In this document: positions 2-60,756 of the stretch, piece after piece
How the letters are laid out: each line of letters starts with the position of its first letter
How positions within the stretch are numbered: position 1 is the stretch's first letter
Source: a virus
Reading direction: 5' to 3' (one strand)
Virus record (IMG/VR): IMGVR_UViG_3300018080_003942
Coordinates: 1 to 64,000 of that record
Length of the DNA stretch: 64,000 nt
Position numbers and translations under genes: made by a program
Notes under the pieces: model-generated
The model's database searches: none
Told to the model about the DNA's origin: nothing
What the model saw: the letters and a program-made list of their open reading frames with translations, nothing else

Positions 2-2113
2 GCCGCCCGTCGTGCGCTCGAGGTGGAGGCTGAAGACCGCCCGGTGCTGATGAACCGCGCGCCCTCACTGCACAAGTTCAACATCCAGGCCCTCAAGCCC
101 CGGGTGATCGACGGTAAGGCGGTCGAGGTCAACCCGCTCATCGTGAGCGGCTACAACATGGACTTCGACGGGGATACGGCCGGTCTACACGTTCCGGTCT
201 CTGAAGAGGCCCGGCGCGAGGCTCGTGAGAAGCTGCTCCCGTCGCGCAACCTGTTCAGCCCTCGGGAGGAGTTCGTGGTCCATGCCCCGACCAAGGAGAC
301 GATCCTCGGGGTGTACCTGATGACTACGCCCAAGGGACTTGCCTCCAAGTCGTTCTCCTCCGACCAGGAGATGGTCAAGGCATACCAGGCCAAGGAGATC
401 AAGGTCAACGAAGCGGTGAAGGTCCAAGGCGCTGTGACCTGCGCCGGTCAGGCCATCTTCAACACGGCGCTTCCTATGGATCTGCGCGTGGGTCGTACGT
501 CGGTGACCGGTCCGCGTTTGAGCCAGCTCCTGGTTCGCATCGGTCGGCAGTTGGGCCCCGACCGGGCCGCTCAAGTGATCTCGAAGATCAAGGACCTAGG
601 CAACCACTACGTGACCGAGGTCGGGTTCTCCGTGAGTCTCCGGGACCTTGAGCTTGATACGAGCAAGCGGGATCAGATCGTCAACAAGCTCAAACGAGAC
701 GCCAAGACCAAGGGGTTCGATGAGGCGGCTGGCGAGGCGCTCGAAGACATCGCAGCGCTGCTGGCGTCGGCAGAGGATAACCGGTTCGTGGAGGCTGGCA
801 TCACATCCGGAGCCCTAGGCTCCAAAGGCATCCACCGGATGCTGGCGAGCACCGTGGCAGTGACGGATCACAAGGGCAAGACGGTCCCGATCCCGGTCGA
901 GAAGTCCTATGCCGAGGGCCACGATCTAGGTACCTACTTGGGTACGACCCCCGGCGCCCGGAAGGGCTTGATCGACAAAGGCCTGAGCGTGGCGGATACG
1001 GGCTACTTCAGCCGCATGCTCGTCAACAGCTCGATCGAGAACCAGGTGACCGTCGCGGACTGCGGAACCAAGTCGGGCCAGGATCTGCCGCTCAACTCCC
1101 AGGAGCTCGCGCACCGCTACGGCGCCGAGGGCCGCTACCGCAACGTCTTGATCACCTCGGACATCGCCCGCCGCCTGCGCTCCCTAGGCCAGAAAACGGT
1201 CAAGGTCCGTAGCCCTCTGACTTGTCAGGCGCAGAAGGGCGTCTGTCAGAAGTGCTTCGGCCTACTCGAGGATGGCAAACCGCCTCGCATCGGTTATCAC
1301 GTCGGTGCTCTGGCCGGCCAGACCCTGGGTGAGGTGGCTACCCAGCTGACCCTGCGCAGCTTCCACACTGGTGGCGCTGTTGGTGGGCCCGACCTGGGTT
1401 TTGAGCGCATCCGTCAGATCATGGAGATGCCTCAAAGCATCCAAGGCAAAGCCATCCTGAGCGAGGCCACCGGCCAGGTGACGCGCATCGACACAGCGCC
1501 GGCGGGCGGTAGTTACGTCTACGTCGGCTCCGAGAAGCACTTCATCCCCAAGGAGCTGGGGGTAGCGGTGAGTCGAGGCCAGCGCGTGAAGGCGGGGGAT
1601 CAGCTGAGCAAGTCGGGTGTGATCAAGCCTCAGGAGCTGCTAGATACGACAGGGGACATCAATCGTGTCCGTACCCATCTGATCAACGAGCTGGATGCTA
1701 ACTACAGAGCGGCCGGCAAGAAGGTCAACCGCCGGATCTTCGAGACGGTGGTCAAGCCTCTTACTGACCGTGCGACTGTGACGGACGTCGGAGACGCCGG
1801 CCGCCATTTCCCGGTACATGCCGGGGAGGTCATGCCTGTCAACCAGATCGAGGAGATGAACCGCAAGCTCAAGCAGCGCCGTCTTCGCCCGATCCAGTTC
1901 GAGCCTATGATCATGGGTATCAAGCAGGCCCCGTTCCAGAGCGAGGACTTCGTGGGAACGCTCACCCATGAGAAGCTCAAGCGGACCCTCACCGAGGCCC
2001 CTAGCCTGGGTAAAGCCACGGACCTTGTGCGCGGCCACCCGATGGCCCGCCTGGGTCTCACCAACCTCCGATCCATCGAAGCCATCAAACGACCTCAAGG
2101 GGTGAAGCGATGA
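2..2113 (+). CDS. rpoC: Phage-encoded bacterial-type RNA polymerase beta-prime subunit (5' truncated)
   Basis: This is the C-terminal two thirds of a multisubunit RNA polymerase beta-prime. The frame is open from base 2, so the N-terminus lies outside the window; the GTG at 23 is not a credible start. Visible landmarks in bacterial order are RPVLMNRAPSLH, the metal-binding motif NMDFDGD (Asp codons at 161, 167 and 173), a bridge-helix region ending in GARKGL...GY..R.LV, the second zinc site (Cys codons at 1061, 1223, 1244, 1253), the trigger-loop segment QLTLRSFHTGG (about 1350-1375) and a C-terminal block resembling bacterial RpoC. It is much closer to cellular RpoC than the split, divergent subunits of phiKZ-like phages, but shorter after the active site than E. 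coli beta-prime, so it lacks large inserts. It overlaps the next gene by 4 nt (ATGA) and leads into baseplate genes, so it belongs to the phage. The beta subunit was not seen in this window. Confidence 0.95.
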   Translation, partial: AARRALEVEAEDRPVLMNRAPSLHKFNIQALKPRVIDGKAVEVNPLIVSGYNMDFDGDTAGLHVPVSEEARREAREKLLPSRNLFSPREEFVVHAPTKETILGVYLMTTPKGLASKSFSSDQEMVKAYQAKEIKVNEAVKVQGAVTCAGQAIFNTALPMDLRVGRTSVTGPRLSQLLVRIGRQLGPDRAAQVISKIKDLGNHYVTEVGFSVSLRDLELDTSKRDQIVNKLKRDAKTKGFDEAAGEALEDIAALLASAEDNRFVEAGITSGALGSKGIHRMLASTVAVTDHKGKTVPIPVEKSYAEGHDLGTYLGTTPGARKGLIDKGLSVADTGYFSRMLVNSSIENQVTVADCGTKSGQDLPLNSQELAHRYGAEGRYRNVLITSDIARRLRSLGQKTVKVRSPLTCQAQKGVCQKCFGLLEDGKPPRIGYHVGALAGQTLGEVATQLTLRSFHTGGAVGGPDLGFERIRQIMEMPQSIQGKAILSEATGQVTRIDTAPAGGSYVYVGSEKHFIPKELGVAVSRGQRVKAGDQLSKSGVIKPQELLDTTGDINRVRTHLINELDANYRAAGKKVNRRIFETVVKPLTDRATVTDVGDAGRHFPVHAGEVMPVNQIEEMNRKLKQRRLRPIQFEPMIMGIKQAPFQSEDFVGTLTHEKLKRTLTEAPSLGKATDLVRGHPMARLGLTNLRSIEAIKRPQGVKR

Positions 2114-2472
2114 CCAAGCGCAGCGCAGCCTACATCGAGGGTCTCCTGAAGGAGGCCGCAGGTAAAAAGAAGAAGAAGGAGAAAGACAGCCAGCCTAAGA
2201 GCTTGACTCGCTCCGACATCGACAAGGCCCGACTGAACCCGGACCTGATGCGTCGTATGCGGATGCGTTCGAGCGTGGCTGTCCCCCTCAAAGGCGATGA
2301 GCTGCTTCAGGTGCGCCGGCTGGCGCGTCGGAACCTTCCCTTGATGCGTCAGCGCAACCCCAAGCTGACCGAGAAGGCCCTTTACGATCGCCTGGTGGCG
2401 CTGATCCAGAGCCGCCGGCCCGAGATGCGCAAGAAGCTCCTGGCAGCTGTAGCCACGGAGTACGGGACCTAG
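2110..2472 (+). CDS. Small basic protein with N-terminal virion-type tag
   Basis: A 120-residue basic protein that I do not recognise. Residues 7-18 (AYIEGLLKEAAG) match the N-terminal tag of the protein at 17761 (AFLEGFLKQAGI). A lysine run (KKKKKEK) follows, then an Arg-rich helical body. The start overlaps the end of the beta-prime gene by 4 nt, so the two are translationally coupled, and a baseplate spike gene follows 2 nt later. Location and tag suggest a virion or internal protein; a DNA- or RNAP-binding role is an alternative because of its charge and coupling to rpoC. Confidence 0.75.
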   Translation: MTKRSAAYIEGLLKEAAGKKKKKEKDSQPKSLTRSDIDKARLNPDLMRRMRMRSSVAVPLKGDELLQVRRLARRNLPLMRQRNPKLTEKALYDRLVALIQSRRPEMRKKLLAAVATEYGT

Positions 2473-2474
2473 GA

Positions 2475-3770
2475 ATGCAGCCGCAGTATGGCGCTACCTC
2501 GTGGGCCGGGTTCGCGGAGTTCGCTGATTCCAAGGCGGGCTCCGGTGTCCACCACGTGGGCGTCGTACGCTCCTATGATCCCAGCAAGAAGCTCTACCTA
2601 GTTTCGGTCGAAGGCATCGGGGATCGACAGTGCCGCAGGCTCCTGACCGGCCTGGACAAGCCCATCCCCGTAGGCGGGGGCTGCGTGGTCGTGGAGCTCA
2701 AGGCCCGGCCGTGGCTCATTGTGGGGGAGCTGGATCGGATCTCCCGGGCCCCGGACAAAGCCCTCCCCGGGGCTAGCGAACAAGCTGCGGCCTCTGAGGC
2801 TGCGGTTGGAGCGGCGCTGACCCAGAAGGACCCGGCTCAGGCACCCTCCTTCCGCCCTCTGGATTACCAGGGGATGGCCGAGGAGCCGCAGTTTGCGGGC
2901 GATGCCGGCCTGGAGAACCGCACGAAAGACCACCTGAGGCGGTCTCGAGTGAAGGTCTACAGCTTCGGCGATATCCTGCTGTGGGCCTCTGGCCTATGCC
3001 ACTCGCTGTATCACAAGGCCACCAACACCATCTACCGACGCTGCCGTAACGAGATCTTCCAGGCAGCCGGCGTACTCCTCCAGGTCCTGACCCCTGCGGA
3101 CGGGGATCAAGCGGGTAAGACGACCCGCCGATTGGTTCTACGAAGGAACGCGCTGGATACGACCGTGATCGACAAGATCCGCTCTGAGGGCCAGATCCTG
3201 GCCTCGGACGGCGGGTCGGGCGATGAGCTCCTGATTGCCCCGGTTGCAGATCGCGGGGAGCGAACGATCTGGGGCGACCACCGTGCGGAGGAGATCGACA
3301 ACGATCTGGGGACTTACCGGTTCCAGCAAGAGACGGGCGGTGAGCAGCGGATCACCGGTCAGGTGGGCTCCTTTGAGGCTGAGAACGCGGCGCACCCTGT
3401 TTCTGGCACTCAGAACCCCTCTACGCCCTCTGGCGTGGCGCATCCGGCCGCTAGTACGGCCTACGGGGACGCCGCAGAGGGGAACGTGGAGCGCGGTGTG
3501 CATCTCGATCTAGGGGGTCTCCGGGTAACCTACGACCAGGATCGGGGTGAGCTCGAGGTCCTGAATACAGCCTCTGAGGAGACTCAGCGGGTGATCATGA
3601 AGCCTGATCAGCTCCTCATGGAGCGGGCCGGGCAGTCCTTCTCGTTGGACAACAGCGGGCTTACGATCCGCGTGAGCTCCTACACCCTCGAGGTCGACGG
3701 AGCTATCACGCAGACAGCCGGCGGGAATATGACGATCAACGCCTCTGACATGGACGTGAACCTTGGCTGA
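2475..3770 (+). CDS. Baseplate spike protein, gpV/gp5-like OB-fold
   Basis: A 431-residue protein. Residues about 20-85 look like the OB-fold of baseplate assembly V or gp5/VgrG spikes (repeated short beta strands around GVVRSYDPSKKLYLVSVEG). A central region of about 150 residues is not recognised, and the C-terminus (about 345-431) is strand-rich with DNSGLTIRVSSYTLEVDG and ends GGNMTINASDMDVNLG, typical of a triple-stranded beta-helix needle. The PAAR-like gene begins 8 nt before its stop, the classical spike plus tip pairing. It probably forms the central baseplate spike that pierces the host envelope. The assignment rests on fold-like pattern and neighbour, not on a catalytic motif; no lysozyme domain was seen. 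Confidence 0.75.
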   Translation: MQPQYGATSWAGFAEFADSKAGSGVHHVGVVRSYDPSKKLYLVSVEGIGDRQCRRLLTGLDKPIPVGGGCVVVELKARPWLIVGELDRISRAPDKALPGASEQAAASEAAVGAALTQKDPAQAPSFRPLDYQGMAEEPQFAGDAGLENRTKDHLRRSRVKVYSFGDILLWASGLCHSLYHKATNTIYRRCRNEIFQAAGVLLQVLTPADGDQAGKTTRRLVLRRNALDTTVIDKIRSEGQILASDGGSGDELLIAPVADRGERTIWGDHRAEEIDNDLGTYRFQQETGGEQRITGQVGSFEAENAAHPVSGTQNPSTPSGVAHPAASTAYGDAAEGNVERGVHLDLGGLRVTYDQDRGELEVLNTASEETQRVIMKPDQLLMERAGQSFSLDNSGLTIRVSSYTLEVDGAITQTAGGNMTINASDMDVNLG

Positions 3771-4047
3771 GGTCCAGCGAGAGGGTGACCCCATCAGCTG
3801 TGGGGACAAGCACGGCAGCGCTGCGGGGTTCCGCCTCAACGGTAAGCGTGTGGCCCTCCTAGGGGAGCTCTCGGCCGGCCATGACGGCTTCCCACCTACC
3901 CCGGTCCTCACCGGTGAGAGCCGTTTTCGGGTAAATGGGGTCCCTATCGTACTGGAGGGGGCCGCCTATGCGCCGCATACCCGCGGGGACACCACACACG
4001 CCATCCGGTTGGCGCAAGGCAGTGGCGTCGGCCTAAACGTATACTAG
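3763..4047 (+). CDS. PAAR-like spike tip protein
   Basis: A 94-residue protein starting at TTG 3763, overlapping the spike gene by 8 nt. It shows PAAR-family features: an early GDPISCG, repeated short F-x-x-N-G-x-x-V units (GFRLNGKRVALLGE and SRFRVNGVPIVLEG) and His residues near GHD and HTRGD that could bind the tip metal. PAAR proteins form the sharp cone capping gp5/VgrG trimers in contractile injection machines. No better in-frame ATG is available and no strong ribosome site is visible, so expression probably relies on coupling to the spike gene. Confidence 0.8.
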   Translation: MAEVQREGDPISCGDKHGSAAGFRLNGKRVALLGELSAGHDGFPPTPVLTGESRFRVNGVPIVLEGAAYAPHTRGDTTHAIRLAQGSGVGLNVY

Positions 4048-6483: not shown

Positions 6484-7566
6484 ATGGCCGGCTCCACGGG
6501 GCCGTACTCGCGTTCTCAACTCTGCCGCAAGTACGGGATCACTGACAGGACCCTGAGGGCCCTCGAGGATCGAGGGACTCTTGTGCTCACGTGGTACCCC
6601 CGCAACGGGCTCATGGTCACCGACCTTGAGTCGAATGACCAAAAGCGCATTCTGGCGATGGCGCGCAATCACGTCATGTCATTTGGGAGGGCGCAGGGGA
6701 TTCCCCGGCTGCCCTTCCTGCGCTTCCTGTTCCTTCGTTTTATCCAGGTCCCGGTGGAGGATCTGTACGCGGAGCTTCTGGACAGGAACATGATTGCGGC
6801 CCGTAGCTTCAAGCTCCCTCAGCTGAAGAAGATGCACAAGGCCTTTGTGGAGGCGGTCCCGCGCCCGCTTCAGAAGAAGGTACGGGCGCATGCCGAGGCC
6901 TCGACCGCCACGGAGAAGAAGCAGCTTGACGTGCTGCTCAAGGTCTGCGGCATCTACGAGGCCTACCACAACCCACAGCAGGAGCAGAGCTTCAAGTACC
7001 TGTCGGATCCTGAGATCAAACTAGGCATCGACATGGGTTTGAGCTCTCGCGCCAAACTGCCTGAGATTGCTGACTTCATCGCAGACGTGGCGGGCTTCTC
7101 GATCAACCTCGAGGCGCTCCTGTTCTACCACGTCCTCTACCACGACATCAGCTTCCTGGACAACGACGAGATCCAGGCCTACCTGAAGGGCCTGAAGCCG
7201 TCGCATCGGGACCTCCTAGGTAAAGCCGTCGGCTCCACGATCCCCGAGCTCCGCATGGCTCTCGGCTTCGTCGAGGACATGTCGATCGAGGACACCGTGG
7301 TCCAGCTTCGGAACGCGGTCCTAACCAAGACCTCGGCGACCCTGCTTGCCCCCGGCTCCCAAGAGAACACCCGAGAGTTCAGCGCTCTCTTGCGCAACTT
7401 CGCCTACTTGGTCGATCGCTCGAATATCGAGGGTACCGGCAAAGGAGGGGCCGCCGCGTCTATGCCCGACGTGTTCAGCCAGTTCGAGATGAAGATCTCG
7501 CAGATGGATGGGGCTGGCTTGTTTCGGCTCCCCTCCGCCGAAGGAGAAGAACTGAACCATGGATGA
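6484..7566 (+). CDS. Putative terminase small subunit with N-terminal HTH
   Basis: A 360-residue protein whose first 35 residues form a MerR-like helix-turn-helix (YSRSQLCRKYGITDRTLRAL), followed by a long mostly helical region. It ends 8 nt inside the large terminase gene, the usual place of a small terminase that recognises packaging DNA. The length is larger than the common 150-200 residues. The role is inferred from the HTH and gene order; a regulatory DNA-binding protein is the alternative. Confidence 0.6.
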   Translation: MAGSTGPYSRSQLCRKYGITDRTLRALEDRGTLVLTWYPRNGLMVTDLESNDQKRILAMARNHVMSFGRAQGIPRLPFLRFLFLRFIQVPVEDLYAELLDRNMIAARSFKLPQLKKMHKAFVEAVPRPLQKKVRAHAEASTATEKKQLDVLLKVCGIYEAYHNPQQEQSFKYLSDPEIKLGIDMGLSSRAKLPEIADFIADVAGFSINLEALLFYHVLYHDISFLDNDEIQAYLKGLKPSHRDLLGKAVGSTIPELRMALGFVEDMSIEDTVVQLRNAVLTKTSATLLAPGSQENTREFSALLRNFAYLVDRSNIEGTGKGGAAASMPDVFSQFEMKISQMDGAGLFRLPSAEGEELNHG

Positions 7567-9388
7567 TGCCACGTTCGGGGGTACGCCGCTCTCCTCGAGC
7601 AATGTGGAGCTCCTTGAGGATCTGCACGAGCTCTTCCGAGATAACGACGACATCACTGACGAGCAGTGGGAGGAGCTAGACTGGTTCGCCTACAACCAGG
7701 AAGCTGAAGAGGCCGCAGAGGAGTCTGCGGACCGGGCTGATCCGATCAACCCGCCTCCGGGCCTTGCTGAGGGCCTGGCTCACGGCGGCGTCATTATGGC
7801 CACCATCTCGGATATGGTGGAGAACCTCCTGACGGTCGACCAGGAGCCTTTCAGCTTCGTCGGACGGGAGTACCTGAAGGGGCTGTACGACCCGGTAGAA
7901 GAGTACCCGGAGGGGTGCCGTAACCAGATCTGGATCGCCGGCCGTCAGGTCGAGAAGTCAACCACCCAGAGCGCCAAGTCCGTGGCCTTGGGGGCGCTGA
8001 CCAAGAGCTACAAGACCCTGTACGTGGCGCCCCGCTTCGACCAGGTCCGGGTCTTCAGCCAGCAGCGCTTCAAGCCCATGTGCGAGGACAGCCCGAACCT
8101 CGCCCCGTGGATCAAGCCCAGCCGGACGCTGTGGCAGGTCTCCGCCCGAGAGTTCATGAACGGGGCGTTCTACAACTTCCGGAGCTGTTACCTGAGCGCC
8201 GACAACGCTCGAGGCATTACCTGCCACCACCTCAACGTCGACGAGATCCAGGACATCGTCTCTGATGCTATCCCTGTTCTGGAGGAGTGCCAAAGCCACG
8301 CTACGGCCGAACTGCGGTTCCGCTCCTATGCCGGGACGCCCAAGACGACCTCCAATGTCCTGAGCCGGCGGTACGAGAACAGCTGCCAGTTCGAGTGGTT
8401 GAGTCAGTGCGCGGCGTGCAACCACTGGAACTTCATGGACGAGCGGATCGTGGGCGACGACTTCTTCGCCTGCGTCCGGTGCGGCAAGGAGATCAACCCC
8501 AAGGTGGGGCAGTTCGTGCCTAAGCGCCCCGAGCTCCTCGACAAGTGCTGGGGGTTCCGAATCAGTCAGCTGATGGTCCCGTTCCAGAGTCACGCGGACA
8601 TCATCGCCAAGCGGGACGACCCTAACTACAGCCGCCAGAAGTACTTCAACGAGTGCTTGGGTCTGCCATACGACGAGGGCCAGCTGGTCCTGACCGAGGC
8701 TGTGATGCGGGACGCCTGCGACGCGGATCGAGGGATGTGGACGATCCAACAGTGCCGCGAGCTGGCCGACCGCGGCGTGCCGCTCTTCGGCGGGGTCGAT
8801 TACGGGCCGGGTGAGGGTGAGGATCCTTCTTACACAGTGCTGACTATCGGCTGGTGGGCGACCGCCGGCCACTTCGAAGTCCTCTGGATGCGCAGACTGG
8901 TTGGCGATGAGTCGAACCTGGCCCTCCAGACCAAGGTCATCAACCAGTACTTCACCGAGGCCCGTGTCCGCTGGATGGGGGCTGACTGGGGGTTCGGTGC
9001 TGCTATCAACAAGCAGCTGATCCACGAGCACGGCTGGCACCGCGTGGCTCATCAGCGTTGCCTGCTCGAGTTCCAGTACGGCGGCCAGAAGCAGATGGCT
9101 TCCTGGAACGCCAAGGCGGAGCGGTACATCATCGACCGCAACCAGGGCATGGAGAAGCTGATCGACTCGATCCGCACCAATCAGGTCCGATTCTTCCGAA
9201 TGGAGGAGATGTCCCAGTTCGTTGACGACTTCACGACTATCTACGTGGAGTTCGATGAGCGGCGGAACACCCGGAAGTACGACCACGACCTGCCGGACGA
9301 TGCTTTCCACTCGGTCAACTACGCCTACATGGCGGGCCTCCAGCACCGGAATAAGCTGGTCCCGAGCTGGCTGACTCCGCTGGATTGA
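7559..9388 (+). CDS. terL: Terminase large subunit (packaging ATPase/nuclease)
   Basis: A 609-residue packaging motor. The ATPase part has a Walker A variant GRQVEKST (residues about 128-135; the usual G before K is E, a form found in many phage terminases) and Walker B with catalytic glutamate in LNVDEIQDI (about 224-232). An inserted zinc ribbon CAAC...CVRC spans about 284-307. The RNase H-like nuclease shows metal-binding acids in GVDYG (about 413), GADWG (about 473) and PDDAFH (about 578). It cuts concatemeric DNA and pumps it into proheads through the portal. It overlaps the putative small subunit by 8 nt. Confidence 0.95.
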   Translation: MDDATFGGTPLSSSNVELLEDLHELFRDNDDITDEQWEELDWFAYNQEAEEAAEESADRADPINPPPGLAEGLAHGGVIMATISDMVENLLTVDQEPFSFVGREYLKGLYDPVEEYPEGCRNQIWIAGRQVEKSTTQSAKSVALGALTKSYKTLYVAPRFDQVRVFSQQRFKPMCEDSPNLAPWIKPSRTLWQVSAREFMNGAFYNFRSCYLSADNARGITCHHLNVDEIQDIVSDAIPVLEECQSHATAELRFRSYAGTPKTTSNVLSRRYENSCQFEWLSQCAACNHWNFMDERIVGDDFFACVRCGKEINPKVGQFVPKRPELLDKCWGFRISQLMVPFQSHADIIAKRDDPNYSRQKYFNECLGLPYDEGQLVLTEAVMRDACDADRGMWTIQQCRELADRGVPLFGGVDYGPGEGEDPSYTVLTIGWWATAGHFEVLWMRRLVGDESNLALQTKVINQYFTEARVRWMGADWGFGAAINKQLIHEHGWHRVAHQRCLLEFQYGGQKQMASWNAKAERYIIDRNQGMEKLIDSIRTNQVRFFRMEEMSQFVDDFTTIYVEFDERRNTRKYDHDLPDDAFHSVNYAYMAGLQHRNKLVPSWLTPLD

Positions 9389-11408: not shown

Positions 11409-11621
11409 ATGCGCAACGGAGCGATTAGCCACGGGGACCAAACGCGCGCGTCCTTCATCCAGCCGAGCAAAGACGCCCGGCGGATGGGGACGACGCGTCG
11501 TAAGGAGACGACCCCGCAGCAAGATCGCGATCGAGGCCCTGATTCCTACCCTGAGCACGCCCACAACAAGTACGCAGCGATGCTTGAGGGCTTCTTGACC
11601 GTCATCAACCAGCGCATCTGA
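11409..11621 (+). CDS. Small polar protein ending in the AMLEGFL motif
   Basis: A 70-residue, basic, probably disordered protein; not recognised. Its C-terminal end contains AAMLEGFLTVINQ, resembling the tag seen at the N-termini of the proteins at 2110 and 17761. The stop and the next start overlap as TGATG, so it is coupled to the protease gene, which supports it being real. It could act as a protease partner or scaffold-like peptide. Confidence 0.6.
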   Translation: MRNGAISHGDQTRASFIQPSKDARRMGTTRRKETTPQQDRDRGPDSYPEHAHNKYAAMLEGFLTVINQRI

Positions 11622-13030
11622 TGGAATACGCTCTCGAGAAGCATCTAGCGGCCGGCGGCTACGACGCGCCGGGCTGGGGCCCTGACTATGTGGCGATCCA
11701 CAGCGCCCAGATGGAGAAGACGGCGGGATCGCTCTACACCCCGCCGGAGCTGACCACGGTCATCGAGAAGCTCCGCCCCCGGCCGGAGGGTCGCTACATC
11801 CTGCTCCACGCCATCGGGGCGTATGAGTACTGGGGCGCCAACCGCAACGGTGACGCCTTCCCGGAGTGGAGCCTACGCTCCATGCTCCCGCCGGAGGACG
11901 TCAAGCGCCTACTCGACGGTCCGGTCCGTAAGGCCTGCCCCAACTTCAGCCAGCCCCCAACGGCTCGATACGGCTGCAAGACCTTCGTCGAGTACGCCCA
12001 CGTCTACCGAGGCCACGCCAACAAGGACCCCCTCAAAGCCTGCGGCGATGTGGTTGCGGCGGCTTACAACGAGCGGATGCACCGGATCGAGCTCATCGTG
12101 TTCGTCTACACGGAGAGAGCCCCGGACATCATCGACCGGATCGACCGTGGAGCGCCTGTGGCCTGGTCCATGGGGGCCAAGCTGCCGTTCGACGTCTGCT
12201 CCATCTGCGCTAACGTGGCCCGAACGCGAGCTCACTACTGCTCGCACATGGCCAAAGAGCTGAATGTCGTCTATCCGGACGGCCGTAAGGTCTTCAGCTA
12301 CAACTACTTCCCGAGGTTCTTCGACATCAGTGAGGTAGGTGTCCCGGCCGATCGGAGCGCTTGGACCCTCGCCAAGGTGGCTGGGCTATCCCTCCCTGTT
12401 CCGCCGCTGCGGCCTACTTTCAAGATAGCTACGATCGAGAAGCGCCCCCCTGCCCAGTCATCGGAGTCCATGGGAAAGGCTCCGATCGACCCGAAGCTCC
12501 TGAGCTTTTTGAGCTCCGCAGTCTCTAGAGACTACTGCGAGACCCCGGACCTGCCGGATGCTCAGCTAATGGCCATGAAACGCCACGGAGTGGCTCAGAG
12601 CCTGGCTGCCAGCGCCCTGATGGGCATTCTCCTGCGCCCCCGGGAGGTCCAGAAAATCGCAGGGGATCCTTCACAACTCCCGGAACAGCTTGAGTTTGCG
12701 TCGGTAGACCGCAAACTGCTGTCGAGCTTTGATCCTTATCTAGCCTCTCGATCGCTGTTCGAGCCCTTCATCACGAAGCGCGCGGCCCGCCGAGAGCTGA
12801 GCAAGGTGGCAAGCTCGCTCTCTCCCAACATCCCCCGTTCACCGGTGTTCGACAAGTACGCAGGACTCATCCAGTCCATGGACCACGAGAAGTGGGCCGA
12901 GGCTATCGAGTCGGATCCGGCTGTCCGTTTCGCCCTTGACCCCGATGCGCTGGTTTCCGCAGTCACCGGGACTCGAGGGCCTCTCCCGCCGTGGCTGCCC
13001 TTCGCGGTCGGCTCGGTCAAACTCCTCTAG
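11621..13030 (+). CDS. Prohead maturation protease (HK97/S78-like)
   Basis: A 469-residue protein. Residues about 62-80 contain YEYWGANRNGDAFPE, a block common in large-phage prohead proteases; candidate catalytic residues are His in YRGHAN (about 130) and Ser in AWSMG (about 181), followed by a metal-binding-like C-x2-C-x11-C-x2-H cluster (about 193-211). After residue about 270 comes a helical tail with several K-x-A motifs (KVAGL, QKIAG, SKVAS, DKYAG), which may include self-processing sites. The location just before scaffold-like and capsid genes fits. It would cleave scaffold and N-terminal propeptides during head maturation. Confidence 0.8.
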   Translation: MEYALEKHLAAGGYDAPGWGPDYVAIHSAQMEKTAGSLYTPPELTTVIEKLRPRPEGRYILLHAIGAYEYWGANRNGDAFPEWSLRSMLPPEDVKRLLDGPVRKACPNFSQPPTARYGCKTFVEYAHVYRGHANKDPLKACGDVVAAAYNERMHRIELIVFVYTERAPDIIDRIDRGAPVAWSMGAKLPFDVCSICANVARTRAHYCSHMAKELNVVYPDGRKVFSYNYFPRFFDISEVGVPADRSAWTLAKVAGLSLPVPPLRPTFKIATIEKRPPAQSSESMGKAPIDPKLLSFLSSAVSRDYCETPDLPDAQLMAMKRHGVAQSLAASALMGILLRPREVQKIAGDPSQLPEQLEFASVDRKLLSSFDPYLASRSLFEPFITKRAARRELSKVASSLSPNIPRSPVFDKYAGLIQSMDHEKWAEAIESDPAVRFALDPDALVSAVTGTRGPLPPWLPFAVGSVKLL

Positions 13031-15148: not shown

Positions 15149-16411
15149 ATGGAAACTGTCAACGCAGCCGAGTTCAACGCGCTCTTCGGGGAGGCTCTGA
15201 GTCGAGGCGGTGAGGCCATGGACAAGGTGGCGGCTGCCACCGGCCTGTACATTCAGGACAAGCTCCGTGAAGCCTCGTTCGCCCGCAAGATCCTCCCGCC
15301 GGAGACCGTCACCGAGAAGGAACTGACTCGGAACACGTCCGACGAAGGCCTGTCGTACATCGACGACATCGAGCCGGACTCCCTGGCCATGCAGGTCAAC
15401 TGGCGCGGCGAGCCCAGCAAGACCTACATCGAGGGCAAGCGCTACTCGATCGACATCAGCACCGTGTCCTCGGACCGGTTCCAGAAGTCGATCCAGGAGC
15501 TTCGCTCCTACCGGATGCCCATCATCCGCGTCATCGAGCAGAACACGGTCAAGGACATCCACGAGATCCAGGACCGTTCCTTCATGCGTCACGTGCGCGT
15601 TGCCCTCATGCTGGGCACCCGCCGCCGCATGAACGAGCTCGTCGACCGCAGCATCGTCACCCACACCGGTGACGACGGCGCGTCGACCGACGGCAAGAAC
15701 TTCTACACGAAGTACGCCTTCGCGTCCTACCTGTTCACCCGCAACATCGCCGACACCGTCGGCGGCGGTGGTCTGTCGGACGTCAGCCCGGCCGTCGAGT
15801 CTCCGAGCAACCACGCTTGGGGTCTGACCTCGACCTCGGACGCTACCTACAACCCGGCCAACGGTCAGTTCTCGAACATCGTGCTCTCCGAGGAGACCGA
15901 GTTCGGCCGAGCTGTCCTGCGTGATGCCATCCGCATCCAGTCGGCGCGTGAGATGAAGGCTCGCTGCTTCCTGCTGCACGAGTTCGACTGGAACGCGACC
16001 GTGGGCTGGCTCGACAGCGAGGCCGGTCTGGAGGTCACCTCGGAGATCGTCCGTGACGGGTACAAGTACTCGACCGTGGGCGGCTACACCTTCGTGACCA
16101 CCGTCCGCGACAACCCGGACATCCTCCAGCCGGGTCAGATCTTCACCTTCCCGAGCCCCGAGTTCATGGGCCGCTTCCTCCTTCTTGACGGGACCCAGTT
16201 CTACGTCAACAAGGAAGGCCGCTTCCTGAACATGGAGGCCTGGGAAGACGCCGGCATGGGCTTCGGTAACATCAAGGGCATCGGCCTCGTGCTGCTGTCT
16301 GGTGCCGAGATCACCCTGCCGACGATCTGGCAAACCGAGGGCGGCACCGACGTCGACGTGGCCAGCACCTTCCGTCTCGTCAACGACGTCTCGGACCCGG
16401 TCCCCGCCTAG
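15149..16411 (+). CDS. Major capsid protein (HK97-fold type)
   Basis: A 420-residue protein flanked by two terminators and preceded by AGAGGTG at good spacing, the organisation expected for the most abundant virion protein. The N-terminal about 45 residues are helical (including AMDKVAAATGLY) and may be a processed propeptide. The body is mixed alpha/beta with a long spine-helix-like region (about 115-170) and a Gly-rich loop (about 205-215), then beta-rich P- and A-domain-like segments. No residue-level family signature was identified; assignment rests on size, composition, operon position (protease, scaffold, decoration, capsid) and flanking terminators. Confidence 0.85.
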   Translation: METVNAAEFNALFGEALSRGGEAMDKVAAATGLYIQDKLREASFARKILPPETVTEKELTRNTSDEGLSYIDDIEPDSLAMQVNWRGEPSKTYIEGKRYSIDISTVSSDRFQKSIQELRSYRMPIIRVIEQNTVKDIHEIQDRSFMRHVRVALMLGTRRRMNELVDRSIVTHTGDDGASTDGKNFYTKYAFASYLFTRNIADTVGGGGLSDVSPAVESPSNHAWGLTSTSDATYNPANGQFSNIVLSEETEFGRAVLRDAIRIQSAREMKARCFLLHEFDWNATVGWLDSEAGLEVTSEIVRDGYKYSTVGGYTFVTTVRDNPDILQPGQIFTFPSPEFMGRFLLLDGTQFYVNKEGRFLNMEAWEDAGMGFGNIKGIGLVLLSGAEITLPTIWQTEGGTDVDVASTFRLVNDVSDPVPA

Positions 16412-28118: not shown

Positions 28119-28122
28119 TCAG
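28101..28122. repeat. 22-nt palindromic element, copy 2
   Basis: Identical in all 22 bases to 9464-9485; core GGCACTGG-CTC-CCAGTGTC. Here it overlaps the stop codon of the sigma factor gene (minus strand) and begins a 216-nt gene-free interval. No uridine tract follows on either strand. Confidence 0.8.
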
Positions 28123-28967
28123 AGATTGGGATCGATGTCCTCGAGCAGCACCCACAGCTCTCGAAGCCCCTCGTTCTCGATCTGCCTCACACGCTCCCGA
28201 GTCCGCCGGTAGAAGCGTGCGAGCTCCCCATAGGGGGTCGGGTTCTCGTGCCCGAACCCGTAGTGCCGGCGGATGATGTCCTCAGCCTCCGGCTTCAGCT
28301 GCGCCAGGGCCCAGTTCAAGAGGTCCCGGTTCTCCTGATTGATGACCCGATCGAGCATCGCCGGGGCCGGTCCTAGCTGAACCCCCTGCGCTGTGTCCTG
28401 GGTGAGCCGGCCGCACGCCTCGGTGATCTCGGTGTCCAGGGTCACCAACCGACTATCCCGAGCGTGCCTGTACTTCCGGATCTTGTCCGGGTCCCAGCCG
28501 AGCTCCTCGAAGATCTCCTCCTCGTCCGGGTAGTAGCCGTTGGTCTTCAACATCCGGTACGCCTTGGTCTGGTAGTCGGTGACCAGGGACCGGTGGCGAA
28601 TAGGCTTGGCTGAGAGGTTGCGGTACTCCCGACGGACCTCGGCGTCGATCCACCAGACGGCGTAGGTACTGAACTTGACGTGGCTCTTCGTGCCCTTGAC
28701 GACCCGGTCAAGGTCGAAATCCCTGAGCGCCTTCATAAGCCCCACGAACCCCGCGGAGATCATGTCGTGATAGCGCGCGTCCTTGGCCTCGACGAAGCGC
28801 TGCACTCGTCGGATTACCAGGCGGACATTGTGTTCGACCAGCCGCTGAGCTGCGGCATCATCCCCCTCGCGTAGCGCTTTGACGAGCAGCTCGCGTTCTT
28901 CCTCCTTCGACAGGACTGGGTGATCAGCTGCCTTGTGTAGGGCGATCTCGTCGAAGGACCAGTCCAC
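28119..28967 (-). CDS. Phage sigma-70 family factor
   Basis: A 282-residue sigma factor. Region 2 is clear: LVEHNVRLVIRRVQRF, DMISAGFVGLMKALRDFD and KFSTYAVWWIDAEVRREYRN (core binding, -10 melting and recognition). Region 3 follows (about 140-190). Region 4.2 has an HTH ending RRTRERVRQIENEGLRELW, as in -35-binding sigma factors. It lacks a large region 1.1, resembling group 3 / RpoH-sized factors. With the beta-prime at the left edge it suggests that the phage redirects transcription, with host or phage polymerase. The stop lies within the 22-nt palindrome. Confidence 0.92.
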   Translation of the reverse strand: MDWSFDEIALHKAADHPVLSKEEERELLVKALREGDDAAAQRLVEHNVRLVIRRVQRFVEAKDARYHDMISAGFVGLMKALRDFDLDRVVKGTKSHVKFSTYAVWWIDAEVRREYRNLSAKPIRHRSLVTDYQTKAYRMLKTNGYYPDEEEIFEELGWDPDKIRKYRHARDSRLVTLDTEITEACGRLTQDTAQGVQLGPAPAMLDRVINQENRDLLNWALAQLKPEAEDIIRRHYGFGHENPTPYGELARFYRRTRERVRQIENEGLRELWVLLEDIDPNL

Positions 28968-56979: not shown

Positions 56980-59900
56980 ATGGCCGATAACGTCCAGCTC
57001 TACGACGCGCATCTAAACCTCTGGACCCTCAGGACATCCGAGGACACAGAAATCCACACGCCGCACCACGTGTCGCGGCTGGCGGACGGGGAGGGGCGCT
57101 TCTACAGGCCCGGACGGCCGGTACCTGTGTCGATCTACGGGACGGACGGGGTCGAGATCAACATCGAGGCCGGCTCGATCGCTGTCAGCACAGACCACAA
57201 CGAGGACTCAGTAGCGGTCTTCGGGTCGTCGACCCCTGAGGGGCTGGAAAACTTCAGGTCGCTGGTGGTGGACCCCCAGGGGCACCTCCAGACCACAGTG
57301 GTCTCAGCGCCTGGGGTGGAGCCCGTCGGGGACTCGCCCGACGCGGGGCAGCTAGGTACGGTCATCCTAGGGGTCCAGGTAGGGGCAACGCCAGCTAGTC
57401 AGGTCACGGGGGACGGTCGGACAGCCCCTCTGATCATGGACGATCGGGGCCGGCTCTTCGTCTCTTTCGGCAACTCCGTCGCGGTTCTGCCCTTCACGCA
57501 AAAGGGTGACCTACTTACTTATGACGGATCTGACGAAGTTGTCCTGGGCCCGACGGTCGACGACGCGCTTCTGACACTGGACTCCAGTACCAGTACCGGC
57601 CTCAGGTGGGTGAGCCCGGTGACGAGCTCCCCCAGCCCCGTGCTCTTCCTACGCGAGGATCTAACATGGGCTCTGCCCTCAGCAGGGGCACCGGGCGGGG
57701 CTGCGGGCGGAGACTTGGGCGGGACCTATCCGAACCCGTCTGTGGTCGCTATCCAAGGGATTTCCACTTCTGCGGCTGCGCCAACGCCTGGGCAGACCTG
57801 GGTGTACACCGGCAGCGCTTGGAGTCCGGGAAGCCCGGCTACCGGAGCTGCTACGGACCACGGGACGCTCACAGGGCTCCTCGACGATGATCACACCCAG
57901 TACATCCTGGCTGATGGCTCTCGAGACTTCTCAGGCTCAATCGGCATGGGTGGGAATGAGATCACGGATGTGGCCTCTCCTATCCTCGTATCCTGGGCAG
58001 CTAACAAGGGTTACGTTGATGATCAGATCACCGCGTCCGTCATCACGGACCACGGCGGGCTAGGCGGGCTCGGGGATGACGACCATACCCAGTACGTGTT
58101 GGTGGCTGGCACTCGTGCGTTCACGGGCGATCAGAGCCTAGGCGGTAACAAGATCACGAGTCTGGGGTCCCCGACCACCGCAAGCGATGGAGCCAACAAA
58201 GGTTACGTCGACGCTAACGTGGTCACGGACCACGGCGCTTTGATCGGGCTGGGGGATGATGACCACACCCAGTACATCCTGACTGCGGGGACTCGAGCCT
58301 TCAGTGGTAACCAGAGCCTAGGCGGCAACCTGATCACAAGCCTAGGCTCGCCTACTACCGCAAGTGGTGGTGCTAACAAGGGTTACGTTGACGCGGCTAT
58401 CACGTCGGCAGTGATCACGGATCACGGAGGGCTTGGCGGCCTGACGGACGACGACCATACGCAGTACGTCCTGGTCGCAGGTACTCGAGCGTTCACAGGC
58501 AGCCAGAGCCTGGGCGGTAACCTGATCACGTCGCTAGGGTCTCCTACTGTTGTAAGTGACGCAGCTAACAAAGGTTACGTTGATGCGCAGATCCCGACGA
58601 GCCTACCCCCTAGCGGGGCTGCTAGTGGTGATCTAGGCGGCACGTACCCCGGGCCTACTGTGGTGGCCATTCAAGGCACCGGAGTCAGTGCAAACGCTCC
58701 AAGTACTGGTGATGGCCTGGTTTACACCGGAGCGGCTTGGAGTCCGACCGCGGTCTATCGACCTGGCGGGACGGATGTGGCTGTGGCAGACGGGGGCACC
58801 GGGGCGTCGGACGCGTCCACGGCGCGTAGCAATCTAGGCCTGACCATCGGGCTCGACGTCCAAGCCCACTCCGCAGTTCTTGACGCTACAACGGCCAGTT
58901 ACACAACCGCGGCCGAGGGTAAGCTCTCGGGCATCGAGACCAACGCTGATGTCACGGACACAGCCAACGTGACGGCCGCTGGCGCTGTCATGATCGGCAC
59001 AACGGCCGCGGCCGGGGACCTGAGCGGTACCTACCCGAGCCCGACGGTCGTGGCCATTCAGGGGACTGGCGTCTCGAGCACTGCGCCGAGCTCTGGGCAG
59101 GCCCTGATCTACTCCGGCACTGTCTGGAGCCCCAGCACGCTCCCCAGCGGGGTGACGGACCACGGGGCCCTGACCGGACTCGGAGACGACGACCATACCC
59201 AGTACATCCTGGTTGGTGGCACTCGCGCCTTCACGGGCAACCAGTCGATGGGCGGCAACCTGCTCACGTCGTTGGGGAGCCCGGTGGCGGTAACAGACGC
59301 AGCTAACAAGGGTTACGTCAATGCCTCGATCACCGCGGCCGTCGTCACGGACCACGGGGCCCTTGACGGGCTGGCCGATGACGACCACACCCAGTACCAC
59401 AACGACGCTCGGGCGCTGACGTGGTTGGGGACGCGCGACACAGATGACCTGGACCCGAGCGCCACCCGTCTCTACATGAGCCCGGGTGAGCGCACCAAGC
59501 TCGCCGGGATCGAAGCGCTTGCCGATGTGACCGATGCGGCCAACGTGGCCGCGGCCGGCGCTGTCATGGTCGGTGACGCTGCGGGCGGTGATCTTAGCGG
59601 TACCTACGCAAACCCGTCCGTGGTCGCGATCCAGGGTACGGGTTGCTCTTCAGCAACGCCGACCGCCGGCCAGACCTGGGTCTACTCCGGGTCCCAGTGG
59701 AGTCCTGGCTCACCCGCTGTTGGTGGCGCGTCAGATCACGGAACCCTGACCGGGCTGGGCGACGACGACCACACTCAGTACATTCTTGTTGACGGTACAC
59801 GGGCCTTCACAGGCGCAGTTAGTCTCGGTGGGAGCCAGATCAACAGCCTGGCTTCGCCCACGCTCCCAGCAGATGCAGCCAACAAGGGCTACGTCGACGA

Positions 59901-60756
59901 CCAGATCCCGACGAGTCTACCCCCTAGCGGGGCAGCGTCTGGCGACCTTGGTGGGACCTACCCGGGCCCAGACGTGGTGGCTATCCAGGGGACCGCGGTC
60001 AACTCGGCGACGCCGACGACGGGTGAGGCCCTGCTCTACTCGGGAACGCAGTGGAGCCCTGGGCCGATCAACTTCCTCGAGCTCAACGACGTCGATCCCA
60101 CAGGCCTGACCAACCTCGACCTGTTCTACTACAGCTCGGCGTCGGGGACTATCGTCCGGTCTAGCGGCCTCACGACCTACGCGTTCTACACGCACAGCGG
60201 ATCGCACATCCACGGACAGTACGACGCAATCGACGGGGATCAGCTATCGATCACCCAGCCGGGCGTCAACTACTCCCCGACGACCGACGCGACATACGGC
60301 ACCAACACGGCGCACCTCGCTGCCCATCTGCGGGGTATCGGTCTGGTCCTGGAGGATGTCAGTCCCGCGGTCACCAAGCTCGCCGGGATCGAGGCGGGCG
60401 CTGAAGCCAACGACGTTCAGACCAAGAGCATCACGATCGAGGCGCCGACCACGACGGAAGACATCTCGTTCTTCTACGCTCCGGTAGCGATGACGATCTC
60501 AGAGATGGTCACGGTCCTGGTGGGCTCTCCTACGCCGTCCCTAGCGTGGACGCTCCGGCACAGCACCGACAGGAGCGCTGTGGGCAACGAGGTCATCACC
60601 GGGGGATCCACGGCGAATAGTACGACGACCGGTAACGTGCTGACCTCCTTCAACGACGCAACGGTCCCAGCCAACTCCTTCCTGTGGGTTGAAACGGCGA
60701 GCCCCAGCACGAACGTGACGAGCTTCCAGCTCAGCGTTGAGTACACCGACGACTGA
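56980..60756 (+). CDS. Long tail fibre with tandem adhesin repeats
   Basis: A 1258-residue fibre. Residues 1-165 form an N-terminal attachment domain also present in the protein at 61892 (HTPHHVSRLADG...PVPVSIY). Then come seven repeats of D-H-G-x-L...DDDHTQY, most of which end with ANKGYVD, interspersed with five units of GDLGGTYPNPSVVAIQG type and one GGTGASDASTARSNLG fibre motif. The C-terminus (about 1010-1258) is a distinct beta-rich tip. It is a trimeric receptor-binding fibre. The last codon abuts the next ATG (TGATG). Confidence 0.88.
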   Translation: MADNVQLYDAHLNLWTLRTSEDTEIHTPHHVSRLADGEGRFYRPGRPVPVSIYGTDGVEINIEAGSIAVSTDHNEDSVAVFGSSTPEGLENFRSLVVDPQGHLQTTVVSAPGVEPVGDSPDAGQLGTVILGVQVGATPASQVTGDGRTAPLIMDDRGRLFVSFGNSVAVLPFTQKGDLLTYDGSDEVVLGPTVDDALLTLDSSTSTGLRWVSPVTSSPSPVLFLREDLTWALPSAGAPGGAAGGDLGGTYPNPSVVAIQGISTSAAAPTPGQTWVYTGSAWSPGSPATGAATDHGTLTGLLDDDHTQYILADGSRDFSGSIGMGGNEITDVASPILVSWAANKGYVDDQITASVITDHGGLGGLGDDDHTQYVLVAGTRAFTGDQSLGGNKITSLGSPTTASDGANKGYVDANVVTDHGALIGLGDDDHTQYILTAGTRAFSGNQSLGGNLITSLGSPTTASGGANKGYVDAAITSAVITDHGGLGGLTDDDHTQYVLVAGTRAFTGSQSLGGNLITSLGSPTVVSDAANKGYVDAQIPTSLPPSGAASGDLGGTYPGPTVVAIQGTGVSANAPSTGDGLVYTGAAWSPTAVYRPGGTDVAVADGGTGASDASTARSNLGLTIGLDVQAHSAVLDATTASYTTAAEGKLSGIETNADVTDTANVTAAGAVMIGTTAAAGDLSGTYPSPTVVAIQGTGVSSTAPSSGQALIYSGTVWSPSTLPSGVTDHGALTGLGDDDHTQYILVGGTRAFTGNQSMGGNLLTSLGSPVAVTDAANKGYVNASITAAVVTDHGALDGLADDDHTQYHNDARALTWLGTRDTDDLDPSATRLYMSPGERTKLAGIEALADVTDAANVAAAGAVMVGDAAGGDLSGTYANPSVVAIQGTGCSSATPTAGQTWVYSGSQWSPGSPAVGGASDHGTLTGLGDDDHTQYILVDGTRAFTGAVSLGGSQINSLASPTLPADAANKGYVDDQIPTSLPPSGAASGDLGGTYPGPDVVAIQGTAVNSATPTTGEALLYSGTQWSPGPINFLELNDVDPTGLTNLDLFYYSSASGTIVRSSGLTTYAFYTHSGSHIHGQYDAIDGDQLSITQPGVNYSPTTDATYGTNTAHLAAHLRGIGLVLEDVSPAVTKLAGIEAGAEANDVQTKSITIEAPTTTEDISFFYAPVAMTISEMVTVLVGSPTPSLAWTLRHSTDRSAVGNEVITGGSTANSTTTGNVLTSFNDATVPANSFLWVETASPSTNVTSFQLSVEYTDD

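Follow-up and report, generated by a model that had tools for sequence, protein, structure and literature searches.

The window analysed here, a 64,000-nucleotide stretch (bases 1-64000) of a 91,577-base IMG/VR virus record, opens within the C-terminal third of a gene that appears to encode a fused beta-beta-prime RNA polymerase (RNAP), and we consider it probable that the phage employs a single-chain, alpha-less and sigma-dependent RNAP that would be packaged for early transcription. This reading is supported by the fusion seen in relatives, the retained catalytic residues, the grouping of the protein within a phage clan, the presence of sigma genes and the lack of a detectable alpha, the conserved position next to the portal gene, and the virion proteome of the distantly related phage Arash.

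The RNA polymerase gene at the start of the record

The ORF at positions 2-2113 of the plus strand has an open 5' end, specifies 703 aa and terminates at a TGA codon. The start of the contig truncates the gene at its 5' end, the window holding approximately its C-terminal third. The following features were assigned to it:

2-2113 (+): last 703 aa of a fused beta-beta-prime RNAP, all within its beta-prime half (ORF, Pfam and alignment; the fusion is deduced from the nearest relative, L003, and 109 of 146 viral loci)
155-175 (+): NMDFDGD catalytic triad motif, corresponding to E. coli D460/D462/D464 (alignment, residue table)
935-1027 (+): bridge helix YLGTTPGARKGLIDKGLSVADTGYFSRMLVN (alignment, residue table, helix in the model)
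1061-1255 (+): second zinc site, with Cys codons at 1061, 1223, 1244 and 1253, corresponding to E. coli C814, C888, C895 and C898 (alignment, residue table)
1328-1375 (+): trigger loop GEVATQLTLRSFHTGG (alignment, residue table)

Pfam analysis of this ORF identified Rpb1 domains 2 (3.5e-21), 3 (2.3e-12) and 5 (2.1e-27), and its best match among phage families was phrog_25354, a 1216-aa family with no assigned function. The original prediction had held that the DFDGD metal site, the bridge helix, the trigger loop and all four cysteines of the second zinc site are retained, and each of these was found upon alignment with E. coli RpoC, to which the ORF displays 30% identity. Specifically, the three aspartates of NMDFDGD were identified both in the alignment and in a per-residue table, R425 (E. 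coli RpoC numbering), bridge-helix residues R780, K781 and G794, and all four zinc-2 cysteines are present, and the trigger loop maintains R933, F935 and H936, with M932 being replaced by leucine. An AlphaFold model of the ORF (mean pLDDT 82, pTM 0.54) matches bacterial beta-prime chains with a best E-value of 1.5e-45.

Among the phage sequences, beta-prime residues D460, D462, D464, R425, R780, G794 and H936 are near-invariant, as are beta residues E813, D814, K1065, K1073, R1106 and R678 (residue table), the latter being read in L003 and other relatives. Of the catalytic residues of the bacterial core, the beta-prime set is present in the window and the beta set in L003 and relatives. The residues that form the rifampicin pocket and those that contact sigma have established roles in E. 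coli. The former are altered in the phage enzymes (in L003, H526 is replaced by V, S531 by T and R529 by L), from which rifampicin resistance is predicted. The suggestion that the protein might replace the host beta-prime is unlikely to hold, as the relatives have beta covalently joined to beta-prime, the latter lacks its N-terminal zinc ribbon in the phages inspected (residue table), and the sigma-contact residues R275 and E295 of the E. coli clamp helix are altered in the phage sequences.

Fusion of beta and beta-prime and descent of the enzyme

A scan of IMG/VR identified nine relatives of the window RNAP (31-78% identical), and in eight of these the beta-prime match constitutes the C-terminal half of a single ORF of 2011-2565 aa, while the contig of the ninth (L004) begins within the ORF, with part of beta still covered. 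In the nearest relative, L003 (78% identity), a 2041-aa ORF carries Rpb2 domains 3 and 6, followed by Rpb1 domains 1, 2, 3 and 5. Wider scans yielded 146 viral loci, which were classed by means of home-made beta and beta-prime profiles; as these loci were picked for their resemblance to the window, with near-duplicates among them, the fractions of each architecture are biased. Beta and beta-prime lie in one frame in 109 loci (approximately 2,000-2,150 aa, or longer where insertions are present), beta is fused to only the first half of beta-prime in 31, and six display neither architecture. In the 31 split loci the remainder of beta-prime, where seen, is a separate ORF of mostly around 610 aa. 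All 80 bacterial loci carry separate beta and beta-prime genes. The junction in the fused relatives is without a linker, and a model of L003 residues 590-1789, which spans the junction and both barrels (mean pLDDT 87.4, pTM 0.82), matches bacterial beta-prime chains with a best E-value of 5e-54 and a TM-score of approximately 0.57 of the query.

Since beta and beta-prime form one ORF in L003 and in most relatives, the missing part of the window's gene would almost certainly be beta. Neither a separate rpoB, a full rpoC nor any other beta or N-terminal beta-prime sequence was detected elsewhere in the 91,577-base record, as would be expected if the remainder of the gene lies past the contig start. 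The expectation that a beta subunit lies outside the window was correct in substance and not in form, given that beta represents the N-terminal half of the same ORF in relatives, and the stand-alone rpoC that it implied is at odds with the single ORF of L003 and the 109 fused loci. The search for rpoB and rpoA in flanking sequence, which had been put forward as a check, located beta in fused form in the upstream sequence of relatives, with no separate rpoB in the record and no alpha subunit above the cut-off in sets of 16 and 54 records. The absence of alpha may reflect incomplete records or the use of host alpha.

Large in-frame insertions were observed in several fused RNAP genes (L011:4226-11923, L047, L048/L049, L053, L066/L068, L125 and L175). 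L011 contains an intein with a LAGLIDADG domain directly 3' of the DFDGD motif, and in G010 (L049) the beta barrel domain is split by an insertion.

A beta-prime tree of 204 sequences placed 122 phage sequences, including that of the window, in one clan with support of 1.0, in which the window is the sister of L003. In a tree built from beta and beta-prime concatenated (64 rows, 1,894 columns) the bacteria and the phage clan each received support of 100, the latter on a branch of 0.47, as did the pairing of the window with L003. The model was LG+G4 and no root was inferred; the placement of the long branches L042 and L046 is unsure, and reference sequences of the multi-subunit-RNAP-encoding Caudovirales (mReC) are absent from the tree. 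Members with the split architecture, which include phage Arash and Vibrio phage D69, form one group (support 88) nested among full fusions, and this topology agrees with the fusion having arisen at the base of the clan or close to it, followed by a split of beta-prime, although counts of changes alone do not separate gain from loss of the fusion. The tree that had been proposed as a check positions the window within a phage clan apart from bacteria and not inside one bacterial clade, and the closest bacterial RpoC is just 33% identical. Of the two origins initially offered, an old phage lineage of a bacterial-type enzyme is supported, whereas a recently captured host rpoC is rejected. Two loci filed as phages, L043 (OR844998) and L044 (MT838503), carry RpoC sequences that group inside bacteria and probably represent bacterial contamination of phage collections.

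Genome neighbourhood, sigma factors and proposed role

The original prediction that the RNAP gene runs by a 4-nt overlap into virion genes was also confirmed, as the next ORF begins at 2110 within the RNAP stop (GCGATGACC) and ORFs for terminase, protease-like and capsid-like proteins follow downstream. The relevant features of the record are as follows:

2110-2472 (+): next gene, 120 aa, overlapping the RNAP stop by 4 nt (ATGA); conserved in the sister record G001 (ORF list, synteny)
2475-4047 (+): ORFs of 431 aa and 94 aa, the second PAAR-like (Pfam 3.4e-5, just below the cut-off); order kept in relatives (Pfam, synteny)
7559-9388 (+): terminase large subunit, homologue of Arash gp1 (Pfam, PHROG, Arash comparison)
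11621-13030 (+): head-maturation-protease-like protein, 41% identical to Arash gp222 over 215 aa (PHROG, Arash comparison)
15149-16411 (+): probable major capsid protein (weak PHROG match; position that of the Arash-capsid homologues of G001, G004 and G007)
28119-28967 (-): member of the sigma-70 family containing regions 2, 3 and 4; homologue of Arash gp196 (7e-11; domain and homology searches)
88285-89058 of the record (+), outside the window: second sigma-70-family factor, homologous to Arash gp10 (1e-18)

The gene order 3' of the RNAP gene is common to three related phage records (G001, G004 and G007), and nothing therefore points to an assembly join. In L003, the ORF that precedes the RNAP gene encodes a homologue of the Arash portal protein (28%, 1e-78), and the Arash portal gene, gp204, is likewise located directly upstream of the RNAP gene. 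The terminase, protease-like and capsid proteins of the window's group are homologous to their Arash counterparts. Elsewhere in the window, a replication and recombination block at 35263-56844 (-) encodes a RecA-like protein, two helicases of the ResIII and UvrD types, a family A DNA polymerase and a Toprim primase-like protein, followed by a 1258-aa repetitive tail-fibre-like protein at 56980-60756 (+). A reverse transcriptase (Pfam RVT_1, 4.4e-14) is encoded outside the window at positions 77999-79102 (-) of the record (L002:1000-2103). Its counterpart in G004 is diverged (24%), and the surroundings of the gene yielded no pair of template/variable repeats indicative of a diversity-generating retroelement.

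A profile of the first sigma factor, constructed from the sequences of the window, G004 and G007, matched all long records of the window's clade, that of G020 weakly, and gave no match in the shorter records G001 and G044. The second sigma gene sits among the tail genes of the record and, like Arash gp10, comes after a gene for a protein of approximately 1,160 aa, the two long proteins being weakly similar. In G004 and G007, the RNAPs of which are 47 and 55% identical to that of the window, a common motif, CAAAWW-N14-18-KCATAAGA, was found in mostly intergenic and strand-coherent positions, and it looks like a sigma-dependent -35/-10 pair. Exact matches to CAAA-N14-18-KCATAAGA (forward/reverse) numbered 9/0 in G004, 0/5 in G007, 3/0 in G018, 0/3 in G042 and 2/2 in G021, while the same pattern read backwards produced 0 or 1 matches. 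Neither the window's record nor G001 contains the motif, and a de novo motif search of the window's record returned nothing convincing.

Phage Arash, a cultured Salmonella phage (OQ632216, PMC10585845), belongs to the same clan, and resembles the relatives of the window in having beta and beta-prime joined in gp206 with the portal upstream, two sigma genes, and a homologous terminase, protease and capsid; it differs in that its beta-prime is split after the first half, which is not the case in the window's clade, and identity is approximately 31%. Its gp206 is annotated as 'beta' (OQ632216; L289, L292 and L293), and the name 'beta' is also that used in the portions of the Arash paper covered, where a fusion is not described (PMC10585845). 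That gp206 comprises beta and the first half of beta-prime is shown by its length of 1525 aa and by the way it aligns with the fused protein of G001/L003 (31% over 1,544 aa). In the published virion proteome of Arash, gp206 ranks first in detection, with 3,516 spectra and 128 unique peptides; the C-terminal half of beta-prime, gp216, yielded 1,210 spectra and sigma factor gp10 yielded 467, and gp196 was not seen in the portions of the table covered (PMC10585845). The authors suggest a role in early transcription or carry-over of abundant enzymes (PMC10585845). The gp10 protein is the ortholog of the second sigma factor of the present record. The window phage and Arash have their portal, terminase, protease, capsid and RNAP in common, along with both sigma genes, so they may be members of a single higher taxon.

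Based on these observations, we propose that the ORF at 2-2113 specifies the final third of a single chain in which RpoC follows directly on RpoB, and that this chain would fold into a two-barrel catalytic core for which alpha would not be needed to unite beta and beta-prime. The phage sigma-70-family factors, one encoded within the window and the other in the tail-gene region, would guide the core to phage promoters, and the RNAP would probably enter the virion together with the second sigma factor, be injected, and transcribe early genes, as suggested by the Arash orthologs. What is inferred for this particular phage is that the fusion is full-length, that the enzyme is active and pairs with the sigma factors, and that it is packaged and injected. 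Counting against the proposal are that just one third of the gene lies in the window, that Arash is distant and has a split beta-prime, that its virion RNAP is possibly carry-over, and that the promoter-like motif is absent from the record.

The main rival is that the same fused RNAP acts as a non-virion enzyme for middle or late genes, in the manner of the phiKZ/AR9 nvRNAP, its place in a structural operon being a matter of history. The location of the first sigma gene outside the tail region, and the absence of its Arash ortholog gp196 from the virion-table portions covered, are in keeping with this, and a virion role for this phage rests on orthology to Arash gp206, gp216 and gp10; however, the late-operon position beside the portal in relatives and the strong detection of those three proteins in Arash virions (PMC10585845) render it rather unlikely. 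Whether beta-prime might instead be a separate protein or fragment in this phage is a further consideration, as splits do occur in other branches (of beta-prime in L147-L176 and Arash, and of beta in L134 and L142). The fragment in the window nevertheless starts 5' of DFDGD and reads through the usual, Arash-type split point of beta-prime, and L003 and the other members of the window's 17-member clade with upstream sequence visible are full fusions, making such a split improbable.

A non-functional relic would agree with the truncation of the gene, yet this truncation coincides with the contig end, the catalytic residues are all kept in an open frame and the gene is maintained in more than 100 relatives, so that a relic is very improbable. 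Recent capture of a host rpoC, or a phage contig with contaminating bacterial sequence attached, can practically be dismissed: while the motifs are of bacterial type and certain 'phage' RpoC records (L043 and L044) do group with bacteria, the phage clan has support of 100, the top identity to a bacterial RpoC is that mentioned above (33%), and identical gene neighbours are shared by three related phage records.

The packaged, single-chain enzyme remains our preferred reading. A broader scenario, which is held tentatively and at somewhat short of an even chance, is that of an old and widespread tailed-phage lineage with a compact transcription machine, consisting of one beta-beta-prime chain that lacks alpha and the N-terminal zinc ribbon and uses its own sigma-70 factors. 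The fusion would be basal and beta-prime re-split in the Arash branch, and the holoenzyme would be packed with one sigma factor for early genes, with a second, non-packaged sigma factor reprogramming the same core later.

Comparison with known RNA polymerases

Cellular beta-beta-prime fusions exist in Helicobacter and Wolbachia, in the same order and together with alpha and omega. As far as trees from which both genera are absent can tell, these are not related to the phage fusions by recent descent. In phages, deep-branching beta and beta-prime were already established by the description of mReC (Weinheimer and Aylward 2020, PMC7481178). Like the proteins described here, the mReC subunits are alignable with cellular RNAP and form a clade apart from cells, the same separation being found in the present trees (support 1.0 and 100). 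In contrast, beta and beta-prime are presented in that paper as two subunits, with no beta-beta-prime fusion in mReC and no sigma mentioned (PMC7481178). Inclusion as mReC called for beta and beta-prime each of at least 800 aa on a contig, whereas L003 carries both in one 2041-aa ORF and the window gene is truncated; additionally, the NADxDGD filter (PMC7481178) would leave out the NMDFDGD of the window and its nearest relatives. As most of the wider fused clan carries NADFDGD, mReC probably overlaps with it; none of the named mReC contigs was recognised among the loci. The terminase family reported for mReC (PF03237) differs from that seen here: the window's record has no PF03237, its terminase belonging to PF05876, while 12 of the 54 records, more distant ones, pass the PF03237 cut-off. 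The reported capsid family may differ as well, the gp23-type PF07068 having matched none of 54 records and none of the control genomes either.

The virion and non-virion RNAPs of the phiKZ/AR9 jumbo phages are likewise two-barrel multisubunit enzymes, the former being packaged, but in those phages two or three separate proteins make up beta, and likewise beta-prime, and no sigma-70 is encoded (PMC7598289, PMC7824862), whereas the window's relatives have the two subunits fused and the present record has two sigma genes. The RNAPs of crAss-like phages (gp66) and Thermus phage P23-45 are single-chain two-barrel enzymes, some of which are virion-borne, a single chain being seen here in relatives; they constitute a highly diverged clade (PMC10770324), whereas Pfam Rpb1 and Rpb2 domains are recognised directly in the present proteins. 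A literature search that covered the main text of openly accessible papers identified no described beta-beta-prime fusion in phages near cellular RNAP; one paper names 'derivatives with fused DPBB domains' within the cellular clade but gives no details of them (PMC10770324).

If confirmed, this would be an unusually compact sigma-dependent RNAP of bacterial type, composed of one catalytic chain and sigma, permitting a direct test of whether alpha matters beyond assembly and regulation and providing a tractable enzyme for studies of RNAP evolution. While mReC, jumbo-phage and crAss RNAPs represent known kinds, the comparison suggests that the single-chain fusion near cellular RNAP with a phage sigma factor may be new. 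A published jumbo-phage survey described one group with a split, sigma-less RNAP and a second that has sigma factors but lacks RNAP; the lineage described here, as opposed to either, has both RNAP and sigma, with a core that forms one chain alignable with bacterial enzymes.
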